Source: Gammaproteobacteria bacterium (lineage in GTDB: Bacteria > Pseudomonadota > Gammaproteobacteria > Pseudomonadales > IMCC2047). Taken from it: a stretch of 64,000 bases of DNA. This document shows, one piece after another, positions 4,763 to 61,165 of this stretch (its first letter is position 1; each line of letters opens with the position of its first letter). The notes below the pieces were generated by a model. It worked only from the letters and a program-made list of their open reading frames with translations, was not told the DNA's origin and did no database searches. The stretch is from positions 62,001 to 126,000 of the forward strand of contig JAJFKB010000011.1 of NCBI GenBank assembly GCA_021773395.1, given 5' to 3'. The translations under genes were made by a program, and so were the position numbers.

Positions 4763-4793
4763 GCGGGGTAAAAATCGACCAGTTTTACCCCGC
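4763..4793. terminator. 11-bp inverted repeat after the SDR gene
   Basis: GCGGGGTAAAA and TTTTACCCCGC are separated by 9 bases and would form a stable hairpin between the SDR gene and the next gene. There is no clear T-run on either strand, so it may be a terminator of unusual form, an mRNA-stabilising hairpin or a protein-binding site. Confidence 0.4.
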
Positions 4794-4880
4794 TCCACCC
4801 TTTATCCCGCTGGTTGCTTACGCAATAATAGCCCCACCATTTTGATGCAGTAACCCAATACTGAAAAAGGAGCGAAGAGA

Positions 4881-5261: not shown

Positions 5262-5321
5262 TGCCATACCTTTCCATCGCAATCAACCGATAGTCATAAC
5301 ATCATAAGAAAGGAGATAAAA

Positions 5322-6287: not shown

Positions 6288-6360
6288 ACTACATGACTAA
6301 GGGCTGAGGGCTAAAGGGCAATGGGCGAAGTACATGCGACTTCGCCCATCTTTTAGACCA

Positions 6361-7449: not shown

Positions 7450-7592
7450 TGGATTGCCTCAATAAATTGATCTGACTATCCAATTAAGCAATGAAACAAG
7501 GTGTCTAACAATGGAATTTAAGAAGCAAATAGGCTAAATCGGAAAATAACGATATCTTCGATGGCCCTCCCCGCTACTACAGGCTATAACGC

Positions 7593-12205: not shown

Positions 12206-12316
12206 ACTGAAAATGCTACTTGTCAGTGTGGTAACCGAAAATCTTTGGCTAACCAGCAGAAATGATTTTAGTGACAGCAAGGGCAGATACGAAATGAAAG
12301 AAGTGCTAACCCTTGA

Positions 12317-12658
12317 CTACTTCACATGTACCACACCTGTCATTTTGGGGTGTGGCCCGCAGCGGTAGGGAAAAGTTCCCACCTCATTGAAAGTACGCTC
12401 GAAAACTTCATCCGGCCAAAAATACTCACCATCCTTTTCGCCCAGCTGCTCAAACCAGACACTGTGGTACTGGCGTTTTTCATTGTTAACCCAGCGAATT
12501 GTGTCGCCTTTATTGATGGTTATCTCCTGCGGGATATACTCCTTTTTTAAAATCTCCACTTCAACGGTAGCGGCACAGGCTACCCCGCTTGCAGAGACAA
12601 GCAGGGCGATCAAACCAATCTGACAAATTCTTAACTTTATAAGATCAAGATGTTTCAT
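12317..12658 (-). CDS. Periplasmic type 1 copper protein (cupredoxin)
   Basis: A 113-residue small blue-copper protein with a signal peptide (ending SGVACA, about residue 29). Type 1 copper ligands are visible: His65 in QYHSVWF and the C-terminal Cys100-x2-His103-x2-Met106 (CGPHPKM). It is likely an electron carrier in the periplasm. It follows the fusion cytochrome and nirS on the same strand 20 bases downstream, so it is a plausible electron donor for nitrite reductase, a role known for azurin/pseudoazurin in other denitrifiers. The ATG at 12658 is preferred, with GGTGAGG upstream. Confidence 0.85.
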   Translation of the reverse strand: MKHLDLIKLRICQIGLIALLVSASGVACAATVEVEILKKEYIPQEITINKGDTIRWVNNEKRQYHSVWFEQLGEKDGEYFWPDEVFERTFNEVGTFPYRCGPHPKMTGVVHVK

Positions 12659-12678
12659 CACCCTCACCCCACAAGCGA

Positions 12679-14364: not shown

Positions 14365-14467
14365 GGAGGGACTCCCCAAGATCGTAGAAAATATTTCTTT
14401 TCAAATTTGCGTTAAAGGTGGCGAGGTGAGTAAACCCACCTCGCCGTTGCAACATCCACCAAAAGGC

Positions 14468-44855: not shown

Positions 44856-44889
44856 AGTGGACATCTCCTAATCACACTCAGTAATTGTT

Positions 44890-46326
44890 TCATCTGTTTT
44901 TCCTTTCCCGTGCGGCGGCACTCATATTCAACATCATCTCAACACCGTTATGTTCGTTGACAAAAAGATAGTTCAATCCAGTGATTACCTTTTGCCGGTC
45001 TACCTCAATGCTCAGCGCTTCAATCTCGGTATTTAAGACGGCAATGCGCGCTCTGACCGCTTCAGCAAAGTCACCATCATCATTGGTATAAGCGGTCAGA
45101 GAGGCCTCGGCCTGCATATAGATCAGGGGCAACAATTCGGATCGATAGAGCCGTTGTCGGTCATTGAGTCGCATAAGTTGCGCTTTCGCCGCATCAAACG
45201 AAGAGATCATCTTTCTGAGCAATAACCATTTCTCCGTTTTAATAGCCTCGGCCTGCGATACCGCTGCGCGCAACTGTTTGTCTTGCCGGTTGGCGGTAAA
45301 AATAGGTGCGTCAAACGTAACCCCAAATGAAAAGAGATCCGCACGGTCTCTTCCCAGCAGGTCATCATCACGATATCCATAACTCGCATTAACTCCCCAC
45401 TCAGGTTTGTATTTTTGTTTCACCAGATCTACCCCGATACCGGCTGCTTGAATTCTTTGATCCAACGCCTTTACCGCTGGATGCGCGGACAGCTCGTTCG
45501 CCAATTTTTCTTGATTGACGTTAATCGATGGTTGGTAAAAATTGGAATTAAACAAGCTAATGTCTGGCAAAGTTCCGGCCAGCTGTAGCCCTGAACCCTG
45601 AGCCCACTTTTCAGTAGAAACCTCATTCAAATACTGCCCGGTAAAATAATTGCTTAACCACTCTGAAAGCCGTTCCTGAAACATCTCCTGTCGCTGCCGC
45701 AACACCGTCAATCGGTCTTCCAGTTGTGTAAGTTCCAGGTCAGCACGCACAATATCCTGTTGGCGCGTCCTTCCAATGGCCGACGAATAGCTGGCTTGAG
45801 CGACATCTGCCAACTGCTCAAACAAGGCACGGTCTTTCTCGATTAGCGCGATACTTTCCTGCGCTTTATAAGCATCCAGCCATAGTTGACTAACCGTCAT
45901 AACCACCTTGGCTTCCCGGTTCTGGCGCTGGTAAGGGTATTGATCCCCAATTACTTCAAGTTGTTTTCTTTTAATTGCCCGACTATCACCTCGCGGGAAC
46001 ATTTGGGAAATGCCTATTTTTGCCTGGGTCATGCCTTCCTGCTGGAAATCAAATGTGTCAGTCGGAAGGTTGGCCAGCCCCAATGAAACTTTTGGATCAG
46101 GCAACTCACCGGCAGAGACACTCAATGCTTCGATGGCATCCTGAGAATGTCTGTTTCCTACTAACCAGGGATCAATCGCTAACGCCATCTTTACAGCGGA
46201 TTCAAGGCTCACCCCTTTGCTGCTTTCCTCAGCTAAATCACCAGAAAACACTGTCGTTGAAGCAATACTGAATAAGAGTACTAACAGCCTATTCAAAGTT
46301 GACACCCGCTTATCTATTCGAATCAT
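44890..46326 (-). CDS. cusC: TolC-family outer-membrane channel, CusC type
   Basis: A 478-residue outer-membrane efflux protein with a signal peptide (hydrophobic part LLVLLFSIASTTVFSG). It has the two long helical repeats of the TolC family (DPKVSLGLANLPTDTF and PEWGVNASYGYRDDD mark the beta regions). With CusA and CusB it completes a tripartite Cu/Ag exporter. Its ATG overlaps the stop of a small upstream frame (46323-46487). Confidence 0.9.
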   Translation of the reverse strand: MIRIDKRVSTLNRLLVLLFSIASTTVFSGDLAEESSKGVSLESAVKMALAIDPWLVGNRHSQDAIEALSVSAGELPDPKVSLGLANLPTDTFDFQQEGMTQAKIGISQMFPRGDSRAIKRKQLEVIGDQYPYQRQNREAKVVMTVSQLWLDAYKAQESIALIEKDRALFEQLADVAQASYSSAIGRTRQQDIVRADLELTQLEDRLTVLRQRQEMFQERLSEWLSNYFTGQYLNEVSTEKWAQGSGLQLAGTLPDISLFNSNFYQPSINVNQEKLANELSAHPAVKALDQRIQAAGIGVDLVKQKYKPEWGVNASYGYRDDDLLGRDRADLFSFGVTFDAPIFTANRQDKQLRAAVSQAEAIKTEKWLLLRKMISSFDAAKAQLMRLNDRQRLYRSELLPLIYMQAEASLTAYTNDDGDFAEAVRARIAVLNTEIEALSIEVDRQKVITGLNYLFVNEHNGVEMMLNMSAAARERKNR

Positions 46327-47788: not shown

Positions 47789-48727
47789 CTAATGCCCTCT
47801 TTTCAAGGAGTAGTTTAGTATCACTTTGGCTACCTCTGCAGCCTTGTAGCGGTTATGCATATTGCAGCCATCACAAAGCGCGGGAATGGACTCCATACGT
47901 TCCCTGCGGCTCAGCACCTCCTCTATCGAGATCGTGTCGACATTACCTATACTATGCTGGTGGGACACATCATTATAACAATACAAATAATTGCCGTTTG
48001 AGGCGATAAAAAGATCCACATTCCGTGGAATACATTTAAACCTGTTCTTCAGGTACTGATAAGCAACATCCTTAATTGTCGGTACAAAATCCAGCTCTTG
48101 TGAATGCAACTTGTTTGTTTTAATAATGGCTCTCAATCTTTCCGTAGCAATTGCATGCTCTTTCATATTACCGCCCCGGTTATAGAGTGTAGGGGACATG
48201 CTGAGGCCTTCGATTCCATTATGTCTGAACCAGGCTATTGTCTCTTCCAGAGTATTAATACATTCCGGCATAGGTGTTAAGCTAATGACTAGCCGGGTTT
48301 TTTTGAACAGTTTCTGGGCGCTAAGGATATTCCTTTTAACCTGATCGTAATCCAAATTGACATGAACACCCCGATAAACATCCGGGTCGATGCTGGAGAA
48401 GGAGACAACCAAAGTTCCTATTGCTCCGTCCAGATGTCTGATTTTCTCCTCATCCAGAAGTTGCCCGTTGCTTACCATGTCAAAGTGAACCGGGTGCGCC
48501 TTGACCTGATCCACAAATTTCATAAATGATGGATGGGTTGTGGGTTCGCCGTAACCGGCAATTACCACCCTGAATATATTTGCATCCCTCAAGCGATTCA
48601 GAACCCTGTCAAAAGTTCCTGGCTTCATTAACATCGGATTTTGAATTTCACTTTGCGGACACATAACACAACGCGCGTTGCATTTACTGGTCCACTCCAT
48701 GTTGACGGCGATTTTATACGATTTCAT
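47789..48727 (-). CDS. Radical SAM protein with SPASM-like C-terminal cysteines
   Basis: A radical S-adenosylmethionine enzyme of about 312 residues. The 4Fe-4S motif is CNARCVMCP (near residues 16-24) followed by the GEPTTHP segment. C-terminal cysteines (CIPR, YCYND, ALCDGCNMH) resemble a SPASM/twitch auxiliary cluster as in enzymes that modify peptides or sugars. Translation probably starts at ATG 48727, 17 bases after the stop of the PPOX gene; ATG 48766 would overlap it. No precursor peptide is evident next to it. It is the last gene of its unit. Confidence 0.85.
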   Translation of the reverse strand: MKSYKIAVNMEWTSKCNARCVMCPQSEIQNPMLMKPGTFDRVLNRLRDANIFRVVIAGYGEPTTHPSFMKFVDQVKAHPVHFDMVSNGQLLDEEKIRHLDGAIGTLVVSFSSIDPDVYRGVHVNLDYDQVKRNILSAQKLFKKTRLVISLTPMPECINTLEETIAWFRHNGIEGLSMSPTLYNRGGNMKEHAIATERLRAIIKTNKLHSQELDFVPTIKDVAYQYLKNRFKCIPRNVDLFIASNGNYLYCYNDVSHQHSIGNVDTISIEEVLSRRERMESIPALCDGCNMHNRYKAAEVAKVILNYSLKRGH

Positions 48728-48743
48728 GCCTGGTTTCTTAGTA

Positions 48744-49283
48744 TTACTTAATCGGGATTTCTGCATTGGGGGAGAGCGCTCCAACCGGTTCCAGACGAGG
48801 TATGTGCTGGGCACAATTGGGCACCACCTGCTCAACATCAACGAGAACTACTCGGTTTGCCTCGGGAAAAAGAGCCATCAACTCACCCTCACCCTGCTCA
48901 TGAATCGTCGCTTTACCATTAACTCGCAGGCGCGCTCCGTCACTGAAATCAATAAACAGACATCCGACATTGGGGTTTACCAATATATTGCCGAGACTCA
49001 TAAAGGCGCCATTCCCACTGAAGTCCGGAAAAGCTAAGCGAGTCTTGTTCAATACTTTTATTAATCCCGCTCCCCCACCCTTAAAAGAGCAGTCGCAGCG
49101 ACCCTGTTTATCACTGGTCGCCAGAAAGAAAAAGGGGGCCGTTTCCAGCCGCTGGTGGAACTCTCTGGGTATGTGGTTCCATAGGAGTTGCTCCTTACGG
49201 ACTTCATCCCACAATGAGCTGGTTTTCCAACGTTGTTGCGCCTGTAGTTCGCCTGCATGGAAAGGTGTGTGCGCCATATTCAT
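48744..49283 (-). CDS. Pyridoxamine-5'-phosphate-oxidase-fold (PPOX) flavoprotein
   Basis: A 179-residue split-barrel protein likely to bind FMN or F420. Conserved parts are the strand APFFFLATSDKQGRCDCSFKGG (broken here by a turn), LAFPDFSGNGAFMSLGNILVNP and FSDGARLRVNGKATI, which match the COG3576-type flavin-binding family. The substrate is unknown. It is the first gene of a two-gene unit with the radical SAM gene. A perfect YTTAA-N6-YTTAA box lies 44 bases upstream. Confidence 0.85.
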   Translation of the reverse strand: MNMAHTPFHAGELQAQQRWKTSSLWDEVRKEQLLWNHIPREFHQRLETAPFFFLATSDKQGRCDCSFKGGGAGLIKVLNKTRLAFPDFSGNGAFMSLGNILVNPNVGCLFIDFSDGARLRVNGKATIHEQGEGELMALFPEANRVVLVDVEQVVPNCAQHIPRLEPVGALSPNAEIPIK

Positions 49284-49327
49284 CTCATTATTGATCTAGG
49301 GAACCTCTGCAGTTTATAAAGACTTTA

Positions 49328-49343
49328 TTAAGGAAACCTTAAA
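49328..49343 (-). promoter_or_regulatory. QseB/PmrA-like box before the PPOX-radical SAM unit
   Basis: On the minus strand the sequence TTTAA-GGTTTC-CTTAA fits YTTAA-N6-YTTAA perfectly, 44 bases before the PPOX start. Direct repeats with 11-base spacing are the target of PmrA and QseB response regulators. A QseB-type regulator is encoded at 52658-53320, and a sister box precedes the other unit at 57927. Confidence 0.6.
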
Positions 49344-49466
49344 ACACACTGATTAAAGACGGCAAAACGGGGGGGACAAAATAGATATAACCCAACTCTT
49401 TACCTAATAAACCAACTCTGCACAGAATTGATCTATTGACTCTTTACACCCAACCTTTCAGACATT

Positions 49467-50186
49467 TTATTGAAATTCATATTCCAGGTTGAACTTCCAG
49501 TTAATATCAGCGGTATCACTATCTGTCCCCAGAATAGCGCCAAATTCCCAATTTAATTTTTTGCCTCTACCAATCCGCCATAGGCCGCTTACCACAGGCC
49601 CTATGCCCTGAGTATCCTGCGCTTGATAAATTTCTATTCCGGGTTCCAGGCGCTCGTTAAATCGATAGCGGAGCTGTCCTGCAAATGCCGTTTCCCACTC
49701 GTTGTCAATATCCTTGCCCCACTCATAGATAATGGAAATATTCCCAGTTGCTATCCAATTTGGCCATTCGCGTAGCGCAATTAGTGTCGTACTCGCTTCC
49801 CAGATGTTCTTATTTTTTTCCTTTTCCAGCTCAAACAAAAGCCCCCAGTCATTATCATATTCACCCTGCTCTGTGAGTTGCCATTTAAGTTCAGCCTCAT
49901 AGGACTCGATTTTGAAATTGCGGCTTGGCTGATCAACACCCGTCAAATAAACCTCAGCGAAAAAACGATCCGATAACGCTTGTCCATACCCTACTTTATG
50001 CCGGTTTTTTCCGTCCGACGCCTTGCGAGAATCCTGCTCATACAACACCCGATATTCCAGTTCCTTTTCGAGCAACTGCACGTAAGGGTGATAAACCTTA
50101 TCAATCGTTGAGCCGTCGGCGTAAACCTGAAAGCCAACAGACAGTAAAACCAAAACAAATAAAACACCTACCAGTTTCTTATACAT
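49467..50186 (-). CDS. Outer-membrane beta-barrel-like protein
   Basis: A 239-residue protein with a signal peptide (KKLVGVLFVLVLLSVGFQVYA) and a mature part of alternating amphipathic strands with aromatic ends (YEAELKWQLTEQGEYDND, WGLLFELEKE, NISIIYEWGKD, AGQLRYRFNE), ending in FNLEYEFQ, where the final aromatic followed by Gln departs from a strict barrel signal. It overlaps the FTR1 stop by 8 bases. It may be an outer-membrane channel or surface component working with the FTR1 permease and cupredoxin. No named family is recognised. Confidence 0.7.
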   Translation of the reverse strand: MYKKLVGVLFVLVLLSVGFQVYADGSTIDKVYHPYVQLLEKELEYRVLYEQDSRKASDGKNRHKVGYGQALSDRFFAEVYLTGVDQPSRNFKIESYEAELKWQLTEQGEYDNDWGLLFELEKEKNKNIWEASTTLIALREWPNWIATGNISIIYEWGKDIDNEWETAFAGQLRYRFNERLEPGIEIYQAQDTQGIGPVVSGLWRIGRGKKLNWEFGAILGTDSDTADINWKFNLEYEFQ

Positions 50187-50982
50187 CTGAAGCTCTCTTT
50201 GAAATGAAACTATGCCTTTTACAGTATTGTGAGAATAAAGCGGCCACCATAATGACTCCAGCTATAGAGAAGCTGTAAGCCCACACCTCCACTAGTGAAG
50301 GTGTGGCCTCATAACCAAATATGGCATAGATCACCTGGCCAACCACCGACGATTCCGGTATCAGCCAGTTGCTGTCCCATAGTGGTTCACCAGCCGAAAT
50401 CCAGTCTACCTGTATCAGCAATTGGGTTGCTTGCACCATCATGCCCGCAGCCACCAAAGTCAGCACCAACCCATGCAGCAGTTTCGCTTGCGATTGCTCT
50501 CTGACGACCAATGTATAATACACAATAGCACCGACACTCAAGCCAACGGCCAGCCCGATAAATCCACTCGTCAAGGCTCCGACTAGCACTTCCTCCTTTT
50601 GTAAAAAACCGGTGTAAAAAACATACAACTCACCGCCCTCTCTAATAAGAGCAATAAAGACAATGGCCGACAAGAGAAGGCGCATCATACCTTTCGATAT
50701 AGACCTGCTTTGCCATTGTAGTGGGATTAGAATACATATCAGTACATACACCAGGAGCTGCATGCCGGCGTTAACCACTTCCTGCCCTGCATAATCAAAC
50801 CACTCAGAAATAGCACCCAGTCTGGTCCCATAAATAACGGCTCCTGCAAAACCGGCCAATAGTGCTATTGGAGTCCAGCTAAATTTGATGCTTTGGCTGA
50901 GACTCACAGACAAAAGGACCGCAATCAGAATACTGGCTTCCAGCGTTTCCCTAAGGACGATAACAATAATATCGAGCAACAT
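50179..50982 (-). CDS. FTR1-family iron permease
   Basis: A 267-residue inner-membrane protein of the FTR1/EfeU family, which moves Fe3+ after periplasmic oxidation. Seven membrane segments are predicted. The two REXXE iron motifs are seen: RETLE at 11-15 and REGGE near 113-117. It follows a cupredoxin gene by 7 bases, similar to the EfeU-EfeO partnership, but no EfeB peroxidase or M75 peptidase domain is present. It belongs to the long unit beginning at 57875. Confidence 0.93.
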   Translation of the reverse strand: MLLDIIVIVLRETLEASILIAVLLSVSLSQSIKFSWTPIALLAGFAGAVIYGTRLGAISEWFDYAGQEVVNAGMQLLVYVLICILIPLQWQSRSISKGMMRLLLSAIVFIALIREGGELYVFYTGFLQKEEVLVGALTSGFIGLAVGLSVGAIVYYTLVVREQSQAKLLHGLVLTLVAAGMMVQATQLLIQVDWISAGEPLWDSNWLIPESSVVGQVIYAIFGYEATPSLVEVWAYSFSIAGVIMVAALFSQYCKRHSFISKRASDV

Positions 50983-50989
50983 AGCGCAC

Positions 50990-51334
50990 CTACTTTGCGA
51001 TTATTTTTCCTTGGGCCGTAGCCATATTGAACTCTCCAAAGAATGGGTACTCCCCGGCTTTCAGGGGGCCGATAAATATGACCGTTTTTTTACCACCCAG
51101 AATGACTTTTTCACGATTCAATTCATAGCTCTCAAACTCTTCCGGAGTTGTATCTTCGTTGGTAATCAAGAGTTTAATCTTCTGTCCCGCAGGGATCACA
51201 AGCTCAGATGGATAAAACAGATGATCTCGAATAATCAGTTCAAAAATTGGTTTGTCCGCGACCACCGACTGCGCCGCCAGCAATAAGCCAACCCCTAGGC
51301 AGACCTTTGATAAGTAGCTATTACAGCGCATCAT
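50990..51334 (-). CDS. Periplasmic cupredoxin-fold protein (EfeO-cupredoxin type)
   Basis: A protein of about 114 residues with a signal peptide (VCLGVGLLLAAQSVVA) and a single cupredoxin domain (FELIIRDHLFYPSELVIPAG, EEFESYELNRE, GEYPFFGEFNMATAQG). It lacks the Cys of type 1 copper sites, so it likely binds Cu or Fe through His, Glu and Met as in EfeO/P19-linked cupredoxins. It is adjacent to the FTR1 permease gene. The start is at one of two consecutive ATG codons (51334 or 51331), overlapping the end of the sensor kinase gene. Confidence 0.85.
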   Translation of the reverse strand: MMRCNSYLSKVCLGVGLLLAAQSVVADKPIFELIIRDHLFYPSELVIPAGQKIKLLITNEDTTPEEFESYELNREKVILGGKKTVIFIGPLKAGEYPFFGEFNMATAQGKIIAK

Positions 51335-52655
51335 CACCCAATGCACCGCTTATTGAAGGGAAGGAAACTTCCACGGCTAATCCACCCAGCTCAGAGGAAC
51401 TTGACAGCCTTATCTGGCCTTCATGTATTCGTACAATATCGGAAACAATGGATAAACCCAGCCCGCTGCCGATCACTTTCGAATTACTTCGGTCACCCCC
51501 AACCCGGTAAAACCGCTCGAATACCCTTGAATACTCTTCTTCAGGTATCCCGGGACCAGAATCTTCAACCAACAAGCCAACTCTCCCTTCTGTGCTACTG
51601 ACCGTTACACGTATAGCGCCATGATCCGGGGTATATTTCGACGCATTATCCAGTAGATTACGTAGTAAAATCGCCATTGAAGAGAATCTGCCCCGCATCC
51701 TGGCTTCTCCTCCCACAAGTTCGACATTCTGCTGCTTAATGGCCAGCTCTGCGTATATATCTGCAATAATCTCCTGGGCTACACCGTGCAACTCACAGAT
51801 TACCAATTCACTGCTATCGGCTTCCAGTGATACTCTATTCAATGAAAGCAGCTGCTCGATACAGTGTTCCATTCGATCGGCCGTTCGCTTCAGCGCCAGA
51901 CAGGTTTCGTTGTCTTTCTGGTTTTTTGAAAGGTTGTGCAGGTTGACCTTTAACGCCGCCAGAGGCGTTCTCAATTCATGGGCCGCATCGGCTGAAAATC
52001 GCCGTTCTCTCTCAAATGCATCTGACAAACGATTAAACAGCCCATTGAGAGAGCTAATGATCGGCAGTAATTCGCTGGCGTATCGGTCACTTTTCAGCGG
52101 TGAAAAATCATTAACGCCTCTGGAGGACAATTTATTTGCCAGCTGCTTCATTGGCTTGGTTCCAATATTGACAACGATCCACACCAATATACCAATAATT
52201 GGCAATATCCAGATAATAGGTAGAATTGCCCGTATCAACACCTCTTCGGTCAGCGACGAATAGGCCCTGTGTTTTGCCGCAACCACAATAGTTAACTCGG
52301 CATCCTCTTTACCTAGCCCGTAAAGCAACCACTGATGGCCGCCATAACTCTTTAAATGAAAACCCTCTTCCAGGTCGATGAACAATACCTCTGGTAAATT
52401 GTTTGACTTGGCCAGCAATCTGTTATTCTGCCAAACCTGAAAGTGCGTATCCTCGCTGAAAACAGATTTCGGAATGGCAGACTGGTGAACGAACAAAGCA
52501 TTCAGTGTATTCGCTTTATCCATAAGTTGTTGCTCTTCAATCTGATCAACCGCGTTCAAACTATCACGGTATCCCTGTAAAGCGGCAATGAAGTTGCTCA
52601 AGCAAATAACAGACAGTATTACGATAACCAGGAACGTTCTTATAGATTTCATCAT
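51321..52655 (-). CDS. Sensor histidine kinase (QseC/PmrB-like)
   Basis: A 444-residue membrane sensor kinase. Two membrane segments (about 7-27 and 142-165) flank a periplasmic sensor region of about 115 residues. A HAMP-like stretch is followed by the H-box FSADAAHELRTPLAALK (His near 226) and ATPase motifs (LLRNLLDNASKYTP, VEDSGPGIPEE, GSGLGLSIV). The sequence resembles the QseC/PmrB group. The signal is unknown; iron or another metal would fit the FTR1-cupredoxin context. It starts 2 bases after the response regulator stop. Confidence 0.92.
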   Translation of the reverse strand: MMKSIRTFLVIVILSVICLSNFIAALQGYRDSLNAVDQIEEQQLMDKANTLNALFVHQSAIPKSVFSEDTHFQVWQNNRLLAKSNNLPEVLFIDLEEGFHLKSYGGHQWLLYGLGKEDAELTIVVAAKHRAYSSLTEEVLIRAILPIIWILPIIGILVWIVVNIGTKPMKQLANKLSSRGVNDFSPLKSDRYASELLPIISSLNGLFNRLSDAFERERRFSADAAHELRTPLAALKVNLHNLSKNQKDNETCLALKRTADRMEHCIEQLLSLNRVSLEADSSELVICELHGVAQEIIADIYAELAIKQQNVELVGGEARMRGRFSSMAILLRNLLDNASKYTPDHGAIRVTVSSTEGRVGLLVEDSGPGIPEEEYSRVFERFYRVGGDRSNSKVIGSGLGLSIVSDIVRIHEGQIRLSSSSELGGLAVEVSFPSISGALGDDAL

Positions 52656-52657
52656 TA

Positions 52658-53320
52658 TCAGCCAGACTGCCTGATGGTATACCCAATACCTCTGATTGTC
52701 TGGATGAAATCCTGCGGTAATTTTTTTCTAAGATTACTGATATGAACTTCTATTGCATTACTGCCAATCGTCTCACCCCACTCATAGAGACTATTCTCCA
52801 GCATTGATTTGGTTTTCACCCGACCGGCTTCTTCCATAAGAATTTTTAGGGTCATATACTCCTTTTTAGGCAAACGGACCTCATCTCCATTCACTAACAA
52901 AGTATGGGCGGCGGTATCGAGAATGACATCACCAATGGTCACCTGACTTGTGATTGCGGTACTTAATCGTCTCGCCATTACTCGCAACCTCGCCAGCAGT
53001 TCCTCCATTTCGAAGGGCTTGGCCAGGTAATCATCGGCACCATTATCCAGAGCATTGACCTTATCATCCAAAGCACTTCTGGCCGTCAATATTAGAATGG
53101 GTATATTGGGTTTTGCCTTTCGTACAGACTTAAGAACCTCGAGCCCATCGATATCCGGCAAACCCAAATCCAACACAACCATATCCGGATGAAATTGATC
53201 CACCTGCTTTAAGGCATCAGCGCCATGGGCAACGTGTGATATGACAAGACCCTCTGATCGCAGCGCAACCACCAGCCCTTCAGCTAAATCTCGATCATCT
53301 TCAACAAGTAGTACTTTCAA
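52658..53320 (-). CDS. OmpR-family response regulator (QseB/PmrA-like)
   Basis: A 220-residue response regulator with a receiver domain (acidic pair EDD at 7-9, phosphorylation Asp51 in VVLDLGLPD, Thr in LILTARS, Lys in LAKPFEMEE) and a winged-helix DNA-binding domain (about 125-220; NAIEVHISNLRKKL recognition helix). It starts at TTG 53320 after GGAGGGG. Boxes matching the QseB/PmrA consensus lie before the first gene of its own unit and before the PPOX gene. Confidence 0.94.
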   Translation of the reverse strand: MKVLLVEDDRDLAEGLVVALRSEGLVISHVAHGADALKQVDQFHPDMVVLDLGLPDIDGLEVLKSVRKAKPNIPILILTARSALDDKVNALDNGADDYLAKPFEMEELLARLRVMARRLSTAITSQVTIGDVILDTAAHTLLVNGDEVRLPKKEYMTLKILMEEAGRVKTKSMLENSLYEWGETIGSNAIEVHISNLRKKLPQDFIQTIRGIGYTIRQSG

Positions 53321-53342
53321 TAAGCAGCCCCTCCCTCATTCC

Positions 53343-53984
53343 TCAGAGGTGTTTTTCAATATCCTGTAGCGCTTGCCGGATCTCCTTTCTTCGTCCATCG
53401 TCCGCCAGTGCTCGCCCGACACGTGCTGGTGCCAGCAGTGCCTTTTCCATATAATTTTTGGCCTCAGCGTAACGATTCTCATTTTTTAGAAAGTCACCGT
53501 AAAAATAGTTCGGGTCTATCCCATCAGGATTAATCGTCAACGCCTTCATCAATAATTTTTCTGCTTTCTCATCATCTCCAAAACCTATCGGCCAGCCCGG
53601 AACATTAAAGTATAACGTACCAAGACTGGTATAAGCTGAGCCTTGTAACGCATCAGCATCCAGCTCTAACGCTTTTTCCAGATCCAGCTTTGCCGCTTTG
53701 GCATATTTCAAGGCGCCGAGGCCACCTTTAACCCCGGCATAAGTTGATTTTATAATTCCGCGCCATATATGCAACTCTGCTGATGGCGGGTGCTCCGACA
53801 TCAATTTATCTGCCTGTTCAATTAAATCGGTAAAAGCCTCTTTCTGCACCTCACCAGTCAACTGGTAGTTATCAATTGCCCACTGCTTTTGTAGGTATTG
53901 AACTGACTCCTGGATTGTTTCTGCAGTGCTTACCGAAGAAAGAAATATTAACGCAATTCCTAACAAGATTTTAGTCAACTTCAT
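53343..53984 (-). CDS. Periplasmic TPR-repeat protein
   Basis: A 213-residue exported protein with a signal peptide (ILLGIALIFLSSVSTAE) and three or four tetratricopeptide-like helix pairs (PPSAELHIWRGIIKSTYAG, DADALQGSAYTSLGTLYFN, NPDGIDPNYFYGDFLKNE). TPR domains bind other proteins. It lies between the SDR and the response regulator genes in the same unit; a partner is not obvious. Confidence 0.8.
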   Translation of the reverse strand: MKLTKILLGIALIFLSSVSTAETIQESVQYLQKQWAIDNYQLTGEVQKEAFTDLIEQADKLMSEHPPSAELHIWRGIIKSTYAGVKGGLGALKYAKAAKLDLEKALELDADALQGSAYTSLGTLYFNVPGWPIGFGDDEKAEKLLMKALTINPDGIDPNYFYGDFLKNENRYAEAKNYMEKALLAPARVGRALADDGRRKEIRQALQDIEKHL

Positions 53985-54001
53985 TACCTGTTCCTCCTGT
54001 T

Positions 54002-54814
54002 TTAAACATCTACCGGCTTAGTTTGATTCATCCCACAATAACGCCTGATCGTAGGCAGCTGTCTTAACAGGGCTTTATCTACTACTGCCGGAAGCAGACT
54101 ATTCAGCCTCACAAAGAACGACTCCGGCCAACCCAGGTAGCGATTCACGGATTTCCCCGATTCCAATGCGCTAACAAGTTGCTCAGCCACACTCCGCGGC
54201 TTATCGATTGCATTACCTAGCTCCCTGTTCATTTGGTTCACAGCGTCTGTATTCAACGCTGTATCGGTAGCCCTCGGTGCCAGGTAAACAACAGACACAG
54301 CTGTATCACTGAGTTCTCTACGTAACGATTCGGTAAACCCTCTCAGACCGAACTTGGTTGCACAATAAACACTCGACCCCGCATAGCCAATACTGCCTAG
54401 AATTGAGCCCACATTAACGATGACAGCTTTGGGCTTACACTCCAATATCGGCAACAGTGCTTTACAGACTCTGACGGGCGCCGCTAAGTTAGTAGCAATC
54501 AAAGTTGAAATATCTTCCTCTTCTGTACCTTGCAACGTCGCCAACTTATTTATTCCCAAACAGTTAACCAGACCATTAACCCCAAGCTTTTCAGCAGCGT
54601 CTCTAAGGGTCTCGATTCCCTTCTGTGTGTTGAGGTCAGCAACAATTTTTACGTGATTCTCACCATTGAGCGAATTTAGCAGATGATCGAGTTTTACTTC
54701 ATTTCTGCCGGTTAAAAGCAAATCACATCCCTGTTGATCCAATGCTTCAGCAATGGCACTGCCAATACCACCGGTAGCCCCCGTTATTACAATTTTTTTA
54801 AAATGTGTATTCAT
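54002..54814 (-). CDS. Short-chain dehydrogenase of the HDO cluster
   Basis: A 270-residue SDR with the motif TGATGGIG near residues 11-18, NCLG in place of NNAG, and the YCATKFG active-site lysine region. The C-terminal part has hydrophobic segments (SFFVRLNSLLPAVVDKALL) as in SDRs acting on lipid substrates. ATG 54814 follows AAGAGG; the frame is open further upstream to 54991, but that extension has no support. It lies 166 bases after the diiron protein gene. Confidence 0.85.
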   Translation of the reverse strand: MNTHFKKIVITGATGGIGSAIAEALDQQGCDLLLTGRNEVKLDHLLNSLNGENHVKIVADLNTQKGIETLRDAAEKLGVNGLVNCLGINKLATLQGTEEEDISTLIATNLAAPVRVCKALLPILECKPKAVIVNVGSILGSIGYAGSSVYCATKFGLRGFTESLRRELSDTAVSVVYLAPRATDTALNTDAVNQMNRELGNAIDKPRSVAEQLVSALESGKSVNRYLGWPESFFVRLNSLLPAVVDKALLRQLPTIRRYCGMNQTKPVDV

Positions 54815-54980
54815 CGACATCCTCTTTTGGCCCCTGTGATGCGACCGCAATAAATTCGACTGATGCATAATATAGTCTGAATTCAGATCAATCAGCTTTA
54901 GAGTACCCGTTTTAAATCGCCCTATAGAGCTGTCATGACAGTCATTGCATTTATCTTTGCAAATCCAGTATCCCCGGCGC

Positions 54981-55652
54981 TCATGCGGCAATAGTCGCTG
55001 CCTGGCTTGGCGATAACTCTCTGAAAATATTTCCGTAGAGATAATAGAAGGCTTTCGCTGAATGTATAATTTGATCCTGCTCTTCTACAGCTTCAATTTT
55101 ATTCATTAAACCCTCGTAAAATTTGATATGATCCTGATCCAACTCTCCATGTGAGCGCAGGTAACTGAAGGCCTTGGCAGGTAATCCCAACTCTTTCTGT
55201 ATTTTATTCGCAGCTATATCAGCAATTTTGATACTGGTTCCCTCCAAAACATTTACCATGCCAAAAAAACCCAGCGGATTGATACGATTTACGGTGTCAT
55301 AGGCATATGAAACCATTAATTCGGTCGACAAATTTGGTTTGCTATTCCTTGCTTTTTCTTTATCAAAGCCACAAACCTCAATATCATTGAGTATCCACTC
55401 CTGATGACCGAGCTCCTCTTCAATGTATTCTGCCACTGCCTCTCTCAGCCACTCCTTGCTTTCTGGCAATCTGGCTCCTGTTGCCATCAACAGCGGTGTC
55501 GTATGCTTAACGTGATGGTAGGCCTGGTTCAGAAATGCCACATAGTCATTTAACGAGATTTTACCTGCCAAACAGGCAGTAATAATCGGCGCAGACATTA
55601 GATAGTTACGATCTACTTCAACCTCGTGTTGTAATCTTTCATAAAAAGTCAT
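54981..55652 (-). CDS. TenA/heme-oxygenase-like diiron (HDO) protein
   Basis: A 223-residue all-helical protein of the iron-containing redox enzyme group related to TenA. Likely diiron ligands: Glu80 and His83 (EEELGHQEW), Glu137 (LEGTS), and His168, Asp172 and His175 (HGELDQDH). Known HDO enzymes cut or oxidise fatty or amino acids (UndA, BesC, SznF, CADD). It lies between an AMP-forming ligase and an SDR, which would fit a biosynthetic pathway for an acid-derived metabolite. The exact reaction is unknown. Confidence 0.82.
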   Translation of the reverse strand: MTFYERLQHEVEVDRNYLMSAPIITACLAGKISLNDYVAFLNQAYHHVKHTTPLLMATGARLPESKEWLREAVAEYIEEELGHQEWILNDIEVCGFDKEKARNSKPNLSTELMVSYAYDTVNRINPLGFFGMVNVLEGTSIKIADIAANKIQKELGLPAKAFSYLRSHGELDQDHIKFYEGLMNKIEAVEEQDQIIHSAKAFYYLYGNIFRELSPSQAATIAA

Positions 55653-55665
55653 AAGTACCCCATTA

Positions 55666-57165
55666 TTAACCTGTACGAACAGAAAGGTCTTTATTCAGGT
55701 ATAGCTGATTAATACGATCTGAAAATGCGCGCTTTATTTTCTCTCGCTGTATACGTCCATTACCCGTTATAAAAGGCGTTAGCTCAGGCGGTTCAGCACG
55801 CAGATAATCGCCAATTTGCGCGTAGTCAGGCAGGTTCTGGTTGCAAACACCCACCCAGTCAGCAATATCACCATCGCTCACCGACGAGGGTGCAAAAATC
55901 AGTGCAATGAGATAGGGCTGCTCATCACCAAACACCACACAGTGACTAAGTATCGGCAAAGACATTAATACTGACTCCACCCATTCTGGACTTATATTCC
56001 TTCCGAAGCTGGATATCAGGATATTTTTACATCGGCCATCAATTCCTAGAAAACCATCCTTGAAATGCCCTATATCTCCTGTGTGTATTTTTCCAGGATA
56101 CCAACTCGCGGTATCACCCAAATAGCCCAAATGCACAGCACCGGACACCACAACTTCGGTATTTTCAATATAAACCTGGCAGTGGGGCAATAACCGCCCT
56201 ACCGAGTCAATATGATCTTTTGATGGGGTATTTAAAGCTACCACGGATCCACATTCGGATAAGCCGTAGCCCTGATAGACCGGCAACCCCAAAATTCTGG
56301 CATTATGGATAAGTTGTGGCGACACTTTCCCGCCGCCGACTGCGATAAACTTTAAGGTCGCAGGCCGCTGCCAGCCGTTCATGCAAGCCTGCACGAGCAA
56401 AATCAATAACTGGGGAACTAATATCATTGTCATCGGCTGCGTATCGGTAATGCAATCCAACAGCTTTTTTGCATCCAGCCTGGAGCTGCCCAGCATCCCT
56501 CGATCCCTCTCAGAGGGAATAACCACCTCTCCTCCGCTAAGCAAAGGTGTATAAACCCCGGCAATATTTTCAAGCAAGGTACTTAGCGGCAGCAGGCAAA
56601 GATGCCTGGGGTATTTAATATCAATAGCATCCGCCAACGATTGTGCAACCTGCCACTGATGAGCGAAGCTCAAACAGACACCTTTGGGGTTTCCGGTTGA
56701 GCCCGATGTGAAGGTGATTTTCTGCGTACCCTCTGGAAATTTTTGAGGATAACGTTCGGTGAGTTTCCAAGCGTAGATCAAAAATGTCTGACCAGTGTCG
56801 TGATATTCCATCTTTTCAAGTGGCATGCTGAGTCTATCAGGGAGGGACAGATGGTCACTCAACAAAGTATCCACTCCAGCGGTGGTCACGCATTGTTGTA
56901 CTTGGTCTGTCGAAAAGAATGCCGGCAAAGGTATAAAAACCAACCCCAGCTCCTGGCAGGCCAGGTCGATCAGTACCCACTCGATACTATTGTCCGCTTG
57001 CAGCGCAACTACTTTTGCACCGCTGGCCTGAAACCATTTAACACGCGCTTGAACCTCAATGATCAATAATGCGTAGGTCAAATGCTGGTTCCCGGAGACC
57101 AAAGCTACAGAATCTTCCGGTAACAGGCTGGCAACAAATTTGAGCCGTTTTAATATACCCGACAT
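55666..57165 (-). CDS. AMP-forming acyl/aryl ligase
   Basis: A 499-residue ANL-superfamily adenylating enzyme. Core motifs are visible: ITFTSGSTGNPKGVCLSF (about 149-166), YQGYGLSECGSV (near 292), TGDIGHFKDGFLGIDGRCKN (near 367-386) and the C-terminal catalytic lysine region GNGRIQREK. It activates a carboxylic acid as acyl-AMP, possibly for transfer to CoA or an amine. Its ATG overlaps the stop of the thermostable-hemolysin-family gene (TAATG), so the two proteins are probably made together. Confidence 0.9.
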   Translation of the reverse strand: MSGILKRLKFVASLLPEDSVALVSGNQHLTYALLIIEVQARVKWFQASGAKVVALQADNSIEWVLIDLACQELGLVFIPLPAFFSTDQVQQCVTTAGVDTLLSDHLSLPDRLSMPLEKMEYHDTGQTFLIYAWKLTERYPQKFPEGTQKITFTSGSTGNPKGVCLSFAHQWQVAQSLADAIDIKYPRHLCLLPLSTLLENIAGVYTPLLSGGEVVIPSERDRGMLGSSRLDAKKLLDCITDTQPMTMILVPQLLILLVQACMNGWQRPATLKFIAVGGGKVSPQLIHNARILGLPVYQGYGLSECGSVVALNTPSKDHIDSVGRLLPHCQVYIENTEVVVSGAVHLGYLGDTASWYPGKIHTGDIGHFKDGFLGIDGRCKNILISSFGRNISPEWVESVLMSLPILSHCVVFGDEQPYLIALIFAPSSVSDGDIADWVGVCNQNLPDYAQIGDYLRAEPPELTPFITGNGRIQREKIKRAFSDRINQLYLNKDLSVRTG

Positions 57166-57875
57166 TAATCGACCTTCGCCAGACGACGGTAATCGCGCAA
57201 AGCGCTGGCAATATCCGTTATATTGTTTAGCTGCTGATTCGCAATATTGCTTAAACGACTATTGCCTGCAATGATCTCTGAGGCGGTTTTCAGACTACCA
57301 ACCATTACCCGGGGATTATTCTCGTAGTAGCTACCCCACAATAATTGATCACCTTTCAGCCGATCAGGGTCTGCACTAACCAAATAGTGCGGTTCAAATC
57401 CCAAATACTTCATGAGTCGTTCTACTTGCTCAGTTACGGTAAAGACCATCCATTCATAATCCGCTTCTGCTAACGACATGGCCATCAGCACCATTGCAAG
57501 GGGGCCGTACCCCTTTCTCGTAATCGCCAGATTGCCAATTTCCATCAGCGCGCTACGGTCAACCGGCTGCTTTGAAATGGATGCCACTTGCTGCTCGATG
57601 GGACCGTCCAGATACTGTTCCAGAAACATTGGCCGATACCGCCCTGGTCTTAACCCAAATACGCCCACAAGCTCGCTTCCATCATGAATACCGACCAGAA
57701 TGGGCAGGTACTCATTTACATGGGCATTGTGAACTTGCAAGTATTTCCTTGAGACATAGCGTTCTAATTCCTGCCGTCCAGAGCATCCTTCCACATAAAG
57801 GCTTATGCCTGCATTTGATACATAACCATCTCGCATATTGCAGTTATGACTATTAATAACACCTGGCTGAGACAT
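57165..57875 (-). CDS. Thermostable hemolysin (delta-VPH) family protein
   Basis: A 236-residue protein of the T_hemolysin family, which shows GNAT-acyltransferase-like features: a beta-strand with VGIHDGSELVGVFGLRPG, the segment ALMEIGNLAITRKGYGPLA and FTVTEQVERLMKYLGFEPH. No signal peptide is seen. The haemolysin name comes from Vibrio; a fold related to autoinducer/N-acyl-amino-acid synthases makes an acyltransferase role plausible. It is the first gene of the cluster, with a regulator-type box 51 bases upstream. Confidence 0.8.
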   Translation of the reverse strand: MSQPGVINSHNCNMRDGYVSNAGISLYVEGCSGRQELERYVSRKYLQVHNAHVNEYLPILVGIHDGSELVGVFGLRPGRYRPMFLEQYLDGPIEQQVASISKQPVDRSALMEIGNLAITRKGYGPLAMVLMAMSLAEADYEWMVFTVTEQVERLMKYLGFEPHYLVSADPDRLKGDQLLWGSYYENNPRVMVGSLKTASEIIAGNSRLSNIANQQLNNITDIASALRDYRRLAKVD

Positions 57876-57926
57876 ACCGTGGCCTCCAATAATTTTTCTC
57901 TTGGCGTTAACAATAGGATCTTCACC

Positions 57927-57942
57927 TTAAGACAACCTTAGG
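57927..57942 (-). promoter_or_regulatory. QseB/PmrA-like box before the HDO cluster
   Basis: On the minus strand CCTAA-GGTTGT-CTTAA matches YTTAA-N6-YTTAA with one mismatch, 51 bases before the first gene of the cluster. It shares 12 of 16 bases with the box at 49328. It is likely bound by the response regulator encoded within the cluster. Confidence 0.55.
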
Positions 57943-58174: not shown

Positions 58175-58210
58175 AGTTACAAGAGTTACAAGCTCTACAA
58201 GAGCTACAAA
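58175..58210. repeat. Four 9-bp tandem repeats
   Basis: AGTTACAAG, AGTTACAAG, CTCTACAAG and AGCTACAAA follow each other between the tRNA relic and the end of the EAL gene. No coding or regulatory role is evident. Confidence 0.6.
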
Positions 58211-58219
58211 CTCCTACTC

Positions 58220-61165
58220 TCAGGTCAGATTATAGAGCCGTTCAAATTCACCAACAGGAACCGGGCGACTGATCAGAAATCCCTGCATTTGATCGCAAGC
58301 ACAGCGCCGCACATAATCTGACTGAATCTGCGTTTCAACTCCTTCAGCCAATACCGTTATATTGAGACTATGCGCCATCTCTGTTATCGCTCTTGCAATG
58401 ATGGCATCTTCCGGTTTAGTAACAATATCTTTTATAAAGCTTCGATCTATCTTCAGCTTATCGAAGGGGAAACGGCGCAAATAGGAAAGACTTGAATAAC
58501 CTGTGCCAAAATCGTCCAGAGCTAACCGAACACCAATATCCTTGATTGATTTGAGCACTTCAAACATCTTTTCAGGTTGCCCCATCACCACGCTTTCTGT
58601 GATTTCAATTTCCAGACTTGATGGGGAACAGTTACTTTCCTGCACAATTTTTGAAAGATGCGCGACAAAATCGTGGTCTTCGAGCTGGCAGACAGAAACA
58701 TTAACGGCAATACTCAGTTTATCAAACCCCGCAGCACTCCAGCCTGCAAGTGTCATACAGGCCTGCTCGAGAATCCATCTTCCAAGCGGTCTAATAAACC
58801 CCGTGTGCTCTGCTACAAAAATAAAATCCATCGGCGGAACCAAGCCAAGTTTTGGATGATTCCATCTAATCAGCGCCTCCGCTCCCTCCAACTCACCACT
58901 ACTCATATTGATCTGTGGCTGAAAGTAGAGTTCAAATTGCTGCTCCTCAAGTCCCTTTCGCAGATCATTCTCCATTTGCAGCTGCTGACTCAGCTGCCGG
59001 TTCATCTCATCGGTAAACAGATGGAACTGCACATCAGAACTGGTCTTGGCCTGATACATGGCGGTGTCTGCCTTTCTCAATAGGGTTTCAACTTCCTGCC
59101 CATCTTCAGGCCAAACGCTACCACCGACACTCACGGTAATATGCAATTCATGCTGATCAACAATAAAAGGCTGCTCAAATATTGCCAGCAATCGTCTAAC
59201 CATTTCAGACAACAGCTCAATGGACTCAACATTATCAACCAGCAATACAAACTTATCACCGCCGTAACGGGCAAGTGTATCGCAACTCCTTGCAAATTCG
59301 CTCAAGCGTCGGGCAACCGCAATCAATAATCGATCCCCCACCTGAAATCCCAGACTTTCATTAACCAGCTTGAAACGATCCAAACCCAGCACCAGCAATG
59401 CTACTTTGCCTCCTGTTTGTGCATGCACAACACCCTGCTCGAAATGATCAGCCAATAGCGCTTTACTGGGTAGTTCGGTCAGCTCATCATGGTAAGTTAG
59501 AAAATTAAGTCGATCCGCCATCACTTTCTGTTCGGTGATTTCATGATGGATATTGATCACGTGAGTCACATTACCCTGTCGATCTCTGACCGGCGACATT
59601 GAGCACATATCCCAGTAAAGCTCACCGTTCTTTCGTTTTCTCTGTAACTCGCCCTGCCAAACTCGACCCTGCCTCATTCTTTGCCAAAGTTCATCATATC
59701 TTGCACTTGGTATATCTAATGGCCGAGTGATGCTCACATGACTACCCACAACTTCATCGGCGGAATACCCTGACACCTGATAGAATCGTGGATTGGCATA
59801 CTCTATAATGCCATTGATGTCGGATATAACCAATGCACTGAAGCTCTGCTCAATCGCCGTCATCAGTTTTCGTAATTCCTGCTCAGCCTTTTGCCTTAAT
59901 TCCCGGTCGACCAGCAAATAGGAGCGCATCACTTCAAAGGCACTGGCAACCTCCCCCAATTCATCCTGAGCGCTGACCTGAAGAGTTTGGGAAAAATCTC
60001 CCTGCCCGATCACAGTTGCAGAACGCTGTAAACGCTTAAGCGGATTTAGAATACGGTAATAGGTCACCAATAACGCGGCGATAAACACCACCATAACCAG
60101 AACCACTATAGCCATTCCGGCAAACAGCTGACTGCGGTTACGGGATTTAATAAGCATCACATCCTCGTCTATATGCCTGTCCACAGCAGCGGCTAACTGT
60201 AATATCGACTCTACACCCTGTGTTGCACGATCAAACCAGTCCGTCGCATCAACAGGGTATGCACCTTCTTTACGACTACTCTCCAATACCTTCAAGCGAA
60301 GCATCTGGTACTGCCCTTTATAATAGGTACGCAAGGCTTGCCGCGCCTCATTAATGGCTGGGGTTTTTGGAAAGTACTCCAATATATTGTTGATCTCCTT
60401 CATGATTTCTCGTTGAGCATACTTTAATTCATCCAGCTTCCGAAATTCTGCGACGCTCAGCGGCCGTTGCATCGCAATAACTGCACTCAGCAACGCCCGT
60501 TCACCTCCAAGGCTCTCACTAAACAGGAAAAAAAGCTGTTTAACATAAGAACCGTAGCGCGTGGCGTGCTCTGATTCCTCTCTTGGTGCCCTGATTATAC
60601 GGTTGATGTCAGCAACTTCTTCAATGCACTTCGTGAGTTCATCAATCCACTGCAGATAATCAATCCCGCCATTCTGCTCGAGGAGATTTTGATCCACCTG
60701 CAAACGCAGCGCCTGAATAGCACCGTTGACCTTATTGTTGAGTTTTTCTTTAATCAACGACGAAAATAGGTCTGGTGTTCTCTCCAGCTCCAAACGCAGC
60801 TGCTCCAGATTTGTATCGGTATTTTTTCTAACAGTCTGCAAGCGCTGCTGCGCAGCGGCGTGAAAATATTGCGGGTTTGATAAAAAAGTGGCCGTCAGCC
60901 CGCGCTCTACCCCTAACTGCGCAGTGAGGGACAAAGCGCTTTGTCCAATCGCGTTGGCATCCACCAGTCGACTTACGCTTTCATTCCATCTAAAGACTTG
61001 AACAACATTCCAGCCTACAGCACAGATTGCGATGGACGCCAGTACAAAAAACATGAGCAGCAACAGCTGTCTAATTCGCAACGCTCTGAACAGCTTAAGG
61101 AAAACGCCGAGTGTTTCTGAGGCAGCGATAACTTGATCTTTATTGTTCAACAGGAGAACCCTCAA
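58220..61165 (-). CDS. NIT-HAMP-PAS-GGDEF-EAL cyclic-di-GMP signalling protein
   Basis: A 981-residue membrane protein. Order: membrane segment (about 33-55); periplasmic NIT-like nitrate/nitrite-sensing region (LGVERGLTATFLS near 90, extending to about 345); second membrane segment (about 352-372); HAMP; PAS (about 440-555, DINGIIEYANPRFYQVSGYS); GGDEF domain with altered motif GGDKF; EAL domain (EALIRWNHP, DDFGTGYSSLSYL, ITESVVMG). The GGDKF suggests an inactive cyclase, so it is probably a c-di-GMP phosphodiesterase. A nitrate-sensing input fits the nirS region in the same window. The start is TTG 61165. Confidence 0.9.
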   Translation of the reverse strand: MRVLLLNNKDQVIAASETLGVFLKLFRALRIRQLLLLMFFVLASIAICAVGWNVVQVFRWNESVSRLVDANAIGQSALSLTAQLGVERGLTATFLSNPQYFHAAAQQRLQTVRKNTDTNLEQLRLELERTPDLFSSLIKEKLNNKVNGAIQALRLQVDQNLLEQNGGIDYLQWIDELTKCIEEVADINRIIRAPREESEHATRYGSYVKQLFFLFSESLGGERALLSAVIAMQRPLSVAEFRKLDELKYAQREIMKEINNILEYFPKTPAINEARQALRTYYKGQYQMLRLKVLESSRKEGAYPVDATDWFDRATQGVESILQLAAAVDRHIDEDVMLIKSRNRSQLFAGMAIVVLVMVVFIAALLVTYYRILNPLKRLQRSATVIGQGDFSQTLQVSAQDELGEVASAFEVMRSYLLVDRELRQKAEQELRKLMTAIEQSFSALVISDINGIIEYANPRFYQVSGYSADEVVGSHVSITRPLDIPSARYDELWQRMRQGRVWQGELQRKRKNGELYWDMCSMSPVRDRQGNVTHVINIHHEITEQKVMADRLNFLTYHDELTELPSKALLADHFEQGVVHAQTGGKVALLVLGLDRFKLVNESLGFQVGDRLLIAVARRLSEFARSCDTLARYGGDKFVLLVDNVESIELLSEMVRRLLAIFEQPFIVDQHELHITVSVGGSVWPEDGQEVETLLRKADTAMYQAKTSSDVQFHLFTDEMNRQLSQQLQMENDLRKGLEEQQFELYFQPQINMSSGELEGAEALIRWNHPKLGLVPPMDFIFVAEHTGFIRPLGRWILEQACMTLAGWSAAGFDKLSIAVNVSVCQLEDHDFVAHLSKIVQESNCSPSSLEIEITESVVMGQPEKMFEVLKSIKDIGVRLALDDFGTGYSSLSYLRRFPFDKLKIDRSFIKDIVTKPEDAIIARAITEMAHSLNITVLAEGVETQIQSDYVRRCACDQMQGFLISRPVPVGEFERLYNLT

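Follow-up and report, generated by a model that had tools for sequence, protein, structure and literature searches.

We describe here an operon that begins with a gene of the T_hemolysin family and that we read, with a probability of about 0.55, as a short pathway to an oxidised acyl-amide, under the control of an embedded PmrA/QseB-like two-component system (TCS) and accompanied by envelope modules. It lies at positions 47,789-57,942 of a 64,000-nt stretch of DNA (the window) from contig JAJFKB010000011.1 of assembly GCA_021773395.1, a bacterium of the Pseudomonadales lineage IMCC2047. The operon is widely conserved and, as a pathway, apparently undescribed; a search of the open-access literature, with subscription papers largely outside its reach, found no such description. 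Its product would probably be an amphiphilic N-acyl amino acid or aminolipid. What can be seen directly is the gene order, the predicted fold of the T_hemolysin protein, the replacement of a diiron oxidase by a TauD-type dioxygenase in other genomes, and the position and spacing of a regulatory box.

There are twelve genes, all on the minus strand and running from 57875 down to 47789, that is, ten from TH to BAR plus a PPOX and a radical SAM gene. An earlier sequence-only reading of this DNA had counted eleven; profile searches found every gene family that it had named, and in the single direction it had given. From the upstream end, the features are as follows.

57926..57942, minus strand: PmrA-type box CCTAAG-GTTGT-CTTAAG, 51-67 bp upstream of TH, with 1 mismatch to YTTAAK-N5-YTTAAK; predicted site of the operon's own regulator
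57165..57875, minus strand: TH, T_hemolysin (PF12261), predicted LuxI/FeeM-like N-acyltransferase; Pfam 171.3 bits against a gathering cut-off of 27
55666..57165, minus strand: LIG, AMP-forming acid ligase; Pfam AMP-binding, 1.6e-46
54981..55652, minus strand: HDO, haem-oxygenase-like diiron oxidase; Pfam Haem_oxygenas_2, 1.6e-33
54002..54820, minus strand: SDR oxidoreductase, start taken at 54820; NCBIfam PRK09072, 326 bits, above the cut-off of 238
53343..53984, minus strand: TPR protein with a signal-peptide-like N-terminus by eye; Pfam TPR_8, 3.5e-9
52658..53320, minus strand: RR, PmrA/QseB-like response regulator; best NCBIfam model PmrA, 216.8 bits against a cut-off of 330
51321..52655, minus strand: HK, QseC/PmrB-like sensor kinase; QseC 213 bits (cut-off 475), PmrB 202.5 bits (cut-off 314)
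50990..51346, minus strand: CUP, Cys-less EfeO-type cupredoxin; Pfam Cupredoxin_1, 1.3e-30
50179..50982, minus strand: FTR, FTR1/EfeU-like permease with two REXXE-type motifs; Pfam FTR1, 8.9e-12
49467..50186, minus strand: BAR, predicted 12-stranded outer-membrane barrel without a Pfam family
49327..49343, minus strand: second PmrA-type box TTTAAG-GTTTC-CTTAAT, 44-60 bp upstream of PPOX, 0 mismatches
48744..49283, minus strand: PPOX-type flavoprotein, accessory; Pfam PNPOx_N 1e-10, TIGR04025 3.7e-26 (under cut-off)
47789..48727, minus strand: radical SAM/SPASM protein, accessory; Pfam Radical_SAM 2.9e-17, SPASM 1.5e-4

The overlaps claimed from the sequence hold: TAATG is exact between TH and LIG, and HK/CUP and FTR/BAR overlap by 26 and 8 bases, respectively. 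Spacing elsewhere is tight, apart from gaps of 160 bp between HDO and SDR and 183 bp between BAR and PPOX; because of these two gaps, gene spacing alone does not establish a single transcript. Promoter-like matches in the region numbered 16, fewer than the average of 19.3 for shuffled sequence, and so show no excess.

In the pathway that we propose, LIG would activate a carboxylic acid and TH would transfer the acyl moiety onto an amine. HDO, or the TauD-type dioxygenase that stands in for it in other genomes, would carry out an iron- and oxygen-dependent oxidation, and SDR would perform a redox step, the order of steps being our supposition. The exported TPR protein may then carry or present the product in the envelope. 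The PmrA/QseB-like TCS would control the operon through the box before TH, with the binding of RR, the sign of control and the signal all presumed, and the same TCS would also control envelope modules: CUP-FTR-BAR, the PPOX-radical SAM pair here, and an ArnT-like glycosyltransferase set elsewhere. Old reports of haemolysis may, on this account, reflect a heat-stable amphiphile and not a protein toxin. The sequence-only reading had suspected a small-molecule pathway, and the joint presence of a ligase, an acyltransferase of predicted LuxI/FeeM fold, an iron oxygenase and an SDR agrees with it.

T_hemolysin is present in 94 of 294 genomes of the same order, in 38 of 369 drawn from the class and in 78 of 398 drawn from the phylum. 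We compared 153 loci, comprising 94 of the 97 order matches (the window's own, one fragment and one under the cut-off were dropped), 37 of the 38 class matches together with 3 from the phylum search, and 19 hand-picked phylum matches. Around TH in the 94 order loci (tblastn, 1e-5) we found LIG in 93, SDR in 87, HDO in 84, RR in 74, HK in 71, TPR in 65, CUP in 33, FTR in 33, BAR in 31 and PPOX in 2, where the RR, HK and SDR counts may take in unrelated paralogues. This co-recurrence far exceeds chance and answers the refuting condition named by the sequence-only reading, that the genes show no conserved linkage elsewhere.

The exact order TH-LIG-HDO-SDR-TPR-RR-HK-CUP-FTR-BAR occurs in 18 loci of the order set, 5 of the class set and 1 of the phylum set, and near-identical orders occur besides; in some loci (L074, L254 and Alteromonas) the metal module (CUP, FTR and BAR) and the TCS precede the core. 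The five-gene core (TH, LIG, HDO, SDR, TPR) is also found standing alone, and the core without the metal module is common. In 13 loci from other classes of the phylum (L236-L248), TH, LIG and HDO are together in all 13, SDR is present in 11 and TPR in 12. One other-class family carries T_hemolysin in many genomes (those without a match were only partly listed), and the five loci fetched from it (L236-L240) hold the five-gene core with no TCS or metal module nearby.

Named genomes gave a similar roll of genes. Among the best 80 of 582 HDO relatives, a set that is biased to close kin, overlaps the other sets and includes loci cut off at contig ends, the counts were TH 75, LIG 79, HDO 79, SDR 78, TPR 71, RR 63, HK 62, CUP 56, BAR 56 and FTR 55, and carriers include Shewanella, Marinomonas, Rheinheimera, Alteromonas, Pseudoalteromonas, Methylophaga and Microbulbifer. 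HDO relatives also lie on 29 plasmid records, and all six plasmid copies inspected (Vibrio, Citrobacter, Alteromonas, Pseudoalteromonas, Variovorax and Novosphingobium) hold the core. The Citrobacter core had no megablast match in E. coli genomes, and tblastn found no TH matches in phages. Clustering of ORFs across the 94 order loci left seven unlabelled clusters in at least 4 genera; of these, four consist of minus-strand ORFs that overlie genes of the operon, and the other three occur in 4 genera each, at scattered distances from the operon.

TH is predicted to be a LuxI/FeeM-like N-acyltransferase. The AlphaFold2 model, built with 60 sequences, has a pLDDT of 91.6 and a pTM of 0.86, and the first 17 rows of a Foldseek search with it are FeeM and acyl-homoserine lactone (AHL) synthases (E 1e-5). 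VIA-align scored BjaI at 16.0, TofI 15.2, LasI 14.9, RpaI 14.9, FeeM 13.8 and MesI 13.3, followed by the GNAT SbzI (13.0) and by EsaI (12.7); GNATs other than SbzI that are not AHL synthases scored 12.5 or less. In this modelled comparison the AHL synthases from BjaI to RpaI clearly outscore ordinary GNATs and FeeM does so slightly, with FeeM, MesI and SbzI tied; the model shares the fold of both the LuxI AHL synthases and FeeM. No sequence relative of TH in the PDB rises above noise (best E 0.78).

BjaI, RpaI and MesI are titled CoA-dependent, which agrees with a ligase adjoining TH; LIG could provide it with acyl-CoA or acyl-AMP. RpaI, too, has what we take to be an acyl-CoA ligase partner, a likeness to the TH-LIG pair. 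Of 100 loci examined for this, 17 have LIG and HDO in a single reading frame, and a shared frame argues for consecutive or channelled use of the two. In Vibrio cholerae (PMC12208996), a mutant in vca1110, the DthC ligase, when fed C13:0 made C15:0 but no C17:0, and acs1 and prpE mutants behaved like it on C13:0. The vca1110 phenotype is weak support for a long-chain acid as the substrate of LIG.

The visible metal ligands claimed earlier for HDO were borne out: H83, E79/E80, E137, H168, D172 and H175 are invariant in an alignment of 18 sequences (18/18) and would, by that alignment, supply the three-histidine, three-carboxylate set of HDO enzymes. The structure matches are 3dde (E 2.8e-23) and CADD, 1rcw (E 6e-5). 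Across the 153 loci, HDO is present in 138, a TauD protein in 9, both in none and neither in 6; three of these six (L112, L130 and L260) end at contig ends. A TauD/TfdA protein takes the HDO slot where HDO is missing. It lies between LIG and SDR in five of the nine TauD loci, and L290 is rearranged. The residues H76, E78, H259 and R271, which we take to be the iron/2-oxoglutarate (Fe/2OG) motif of TauD/TfdA proteins, are invariant in the eight sequences aligned (8/8). L129 holds a TauD-LIG-TH-MFS cluster at 2017-8300, with genes for a LuxI-type synthase and a LuxR-type regulator on its flanks.

The TPR protein matches the structure of BstC (7t1s, E 1.2e-10), ranked below three synthetic TPR proteins, and is possibly a BstC-like periplasmic lipid carrier.

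The internal sensor-regulator pair was rightly placed by the sequence-only reading, as RR and HK lie within the operon. RR is closest to the NCBIfam models of PmrA and QseB but reaches the cut-off of neither, and both partners fall below the PmrAB equivalog cut-offs. An alignment of 18 HK sequences has no conserved columns in the sensor domain that would correspond to ExxE, presumably the iron motif of the PmrB sensor. The box pattern that we scored, YTTAAK-N5-YTTAAK, follows the PmrA box, whose consensus we take to be CTTAAG-N5-CTTAAG.

With at most 1 mismatch and a spacer of 5, the box stands upstream of TH in 103 of 152 loci. Spacers of 2-4 and 6-8 give 9-27 loci and the reversed pattern 9; four regions within the operon give 1/148, 6/138, 6/140 and 1/84, and shuffled or resampled upstream regions carry it in 4-7% of cases. 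Upstream of TH, 61.2 kb of sequence holds 108 perfect boxes, and the other 2.56 Mb of the 153 loci holds 22; a palindromic site counts on both strands in both sets. Loci with an RR gene anywhere have the box in 91 of 109 cases, as against 12 of 43 without (p 1.3e-10, a guide only, as the genomes are related). In a wider, overlapping set, the box precedes TH in 94/99 loci with the TCS and metal module, 43/57 with the TCS only and 34/71 without. The putative promoter of the operon carries a predicted PmrA-type site. The likeness to the PmrAB regulon lies in the best model of RR and a similar box, but RR is below the cut-off and the predicted target is the TH operon.

Several observations should make one cautious about the pathway as a whole. 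Locus L273 has the rest of the operon with no oxygenase detected, L285 and L292 have TH without LIG, and no SDR was detected in the TauD loci L120, L129 and L131, which form a second type. The changes between HDO and TauD number 3 by parsimony on a FastTree phylogeny of TH whose nodes are poorly supported, so the count of independent exchanges is uncertain. At the position in LIG of what we take to be the catalytic Lys of the A10 motif of AMP-forming ligases, 140 of 173 sequences have Arg and 30 have Lys, so the chemistry of LIG may be unusual. None of 60 TH members matched LuxI PF00765 or FeeM PF21926 at E values up to 1, and TH is therefore called LuxI/FeeM-like and not a member of either family; against one LuxI, a profile comparison reached E 6e-4 but no more than 28% probability, over 53 columns, and the modelled fold tells neither the acyl donor nor the acceptor. 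The box occurs in 5 of the 19 hand-picked phylum loci. The window alone has 11 matches to it, where shuffled sequence averages 6.8 and gives at least 11 in 10 of 100 shuffles; in the window's whole genome perfect boxes number 17 and matches to the reversed pattern 14. These counts are uninformative, so the case for the box rests on the relatives. Lastly, published haemolysis work, as cited in PMC4046660 and PMC12208996, takes TH itself as the haemolysin.

The strongest alternative, compatible with a core pathway, is that two unrelated modules are co-located as shared targets of a PmrA-like regulator, the metal module having no role in the pathway; we regard this as a serious possibility, at somewhat less than even odds. 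Of 14 split loci inspected, 12 are testable, and 11 of these have a box before RR and another before TH; in L142 the box stands before TH and before a redoxin set, with none directly before RR, and L286 and L294 end before RR. The sequence-only reading would have been refuted by separate, unrelated promoters, and this is half the case: each split module does have an upstream region of its own, but the type of box is shared. Other neighbours headed by a box (ArnT-like and ApbE sets) and the frequency of cores without the metal module point the same way. Against this, both oxygenases, HDO and TauD, depend on iron, the supply of which could therefore matter to the pathway, and the full ten-gene order is kept on one strand in the 18 order loci.

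In L034 and L193 a GT2-VTT-ArnT-like set has a third box in front of it, and same-size ORFs occur at that place in L207, L286 and L294; in L193 (4363-7640), and also in L034, the set sits between the metal module and TH. In L142, at 12228-15173, a box precedes a redoxin-DUF3570-ApbE set adjoining the metal module. In the window's own genome (L296, G000:C13:44500-45900), a palindromic box lies about 210 bp before a gene that by eye resembles a ferredoxin/FAD oxidoreductase.

Metal transport is a plausible role for the metal module. The closest structure to CUP is 8vuk, of EfeO type (E 1.1e-21), and its H42, E69, E70 and E105 are invariant in a 19-sequence alignment. FTR passes the Pfam FTR1 cut-off (45.3 bits against 25.3), falls under that of the EfeU equivalog (67.2 against 255) and has both REXXE-type motifs in the window; by a simple pattern, 32 of 90 relatives have both motifs strictly, 32 have neither and 26 are in between. 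BAR has no sequence relative in the PDB above noise (best E 0.72), and its predicted 12-stranded fold is nearest FapF and a COG4313 channel by VIA-align. Of the 294 order genomes, 45 have BAR; TH is present in 39 of these 45, compared with 94 of all 294 (Fisher p 1.3e-16, the genomes being related). One genome that lacks TH, G010, also has the module (L255). The idea that the pathway cannot do without BAR, CUP and FTR was rejected on the order counts given above. The genes just downstream of the cluster (43287-46326) encode a Cus-type membrane-fusion protein, which has CusF and heavy-metal-binding domains, and an outer membrane efflux protein.

A metallophore pathway, whose product would bind iron or some other metal and be imported through BAR, CUP and FTR, is unlikely. 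The linkage with the metal module is recurrent, CUP is of EfeO type and two of the six inspected plasmid copies have TonB receptors nearby; but CUP and FTR genes are near TH in just 33 of 94 order loci, the module stands without the core in G010, both FTR1 motifs are absent in 32 of 90 relatives, and chelating-group chemistry is not obvious. The earlier suggestion of an iron-related or acyl product divides, the predicted fold of TH favouring the acyl half, and the missing FTR motifs and TH-less module speaking against the iron half. Control by metal, also part of that suggestion, would be conjecture, although the regulator is PmrA/QseB-like and PmrA-type boxes stand before both modules in loci where they are split.

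Slightly less likely again is an acyl signalling circuit, in which TH, as a LuxI-fold synthase outside the LuxI family, would make an oxidised acyl-amide sensed by the co-encoded HK, and RR would induce its own synthase operon through the box, in a self-amplifying manner. If true, it would be a third kind of Gram-negative acyl signalling, with synthase and receptor in one operon. Least probable of all is that TH is a true pore-forming haemolysin which its neighbours make, modify or export, a view that has behind it the Pfam name and the haemolysis which PMC4046660 cites for V. cholerae delta-VPH, and against it a high-confidence predicted GNAT fold nearest to acyl synthases, no signal peptide on TH by eye and none reported for its relative in PMC4046660, and labelled recurrent neighbours that are biosynthetic, regulatory and metal genes.

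Parts of the proposed pathway can be recognized in known systems. In the V. cholerae dth (delta-TH) region (VCA1110 is DthC) T_hemolysin adjoins an AMP-forming ligase, as in the window (PMC12208996), and V. parahaemolyticus VP1729-VP1731 has an iron-containing redox enzyme at VP1731 (PMC10469919); the available parts of these accounts treat a haemolysin region or predicted interactions and, unlike the present analysis, hold no pathway, fold, box or metal module. Serratia sp. ATCC 39006 or1352-or1355 is a putative operon of TauD, ligase, TH and transporter (PMC4046660), as in L129 and L131, has no HDO or TCS among its four genes and is strongly up in an rsmA mutant. The LuxI-type synthases BjaI, RpaI and LasI share the TH fold and the top rank among its fold neighbours, with PF00765 absent from the 60 TH members, and the FeeM-type N-acyl amino acid synthases share the fold, again with no PF21926 match. 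The published N-acyl tyrosine clusters (PMC12479983) have ThiF and nitroreductase partners, unlike the TH operon; N-acyl dehydrotyrosine (of the thalassotalic acid type) was rejected as a proven product, since that cluster has other enzymes. HDO has its ligand set and fold family in common with UndA, CADD and SznF (PMC13108848), and differs from them in that the window type is swapped for a TauD-type dioxygenase in some genomes.

The PPOX-radical SAM pair is rare but linked to the TH operon, and the sequence-only reading was justified in including it. Of the 153 loci, 5 have radical SAM no more than 7 kb from TH and 4 have PPOX near TH, and the pair has its own box in the window; neither gene was found in the 80 named or six plasmid loci. 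Its placement varies (divergently before TH, after HK or, once and for radical SAM, between LIG and HDO), and in L097 and L109 a box lies between divergent PPOX and TH. A close radical SAM (at least 52% identity) was found in 3 of 116 order genomes, namely the window's own and two others, both with it within 7 kb of TH.

Directly upstream of the cluster, on the same strand at 58220-61165, is a gene for a large NIT-HAMP-PAS-GGDEF-EAL protein. Three tandem CTTGTA repeats with 9-bp spacing (58178-58201, minus strand, by eye) lie about 300 bp upstream of TH and are possibly the site of another OmpR-type regulator.

If our reading is true, a family long annotated as a heat-stable haemolysin and listed as a virulence gene in genome papers would be the acyl-transfer enzyme of a common environmental pathway. 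Annotations of T_hemolysin would then need another reading, though some of the papers with such listings mean other haemolysins. The swap of HDO for an Fe/2OG dioxygenase in one operon slot would be a natural test of the reaction of an HDO without assigned function, and the conserved box would link the pathway to a PmrA-like envelope response, making its inducer directly testable.

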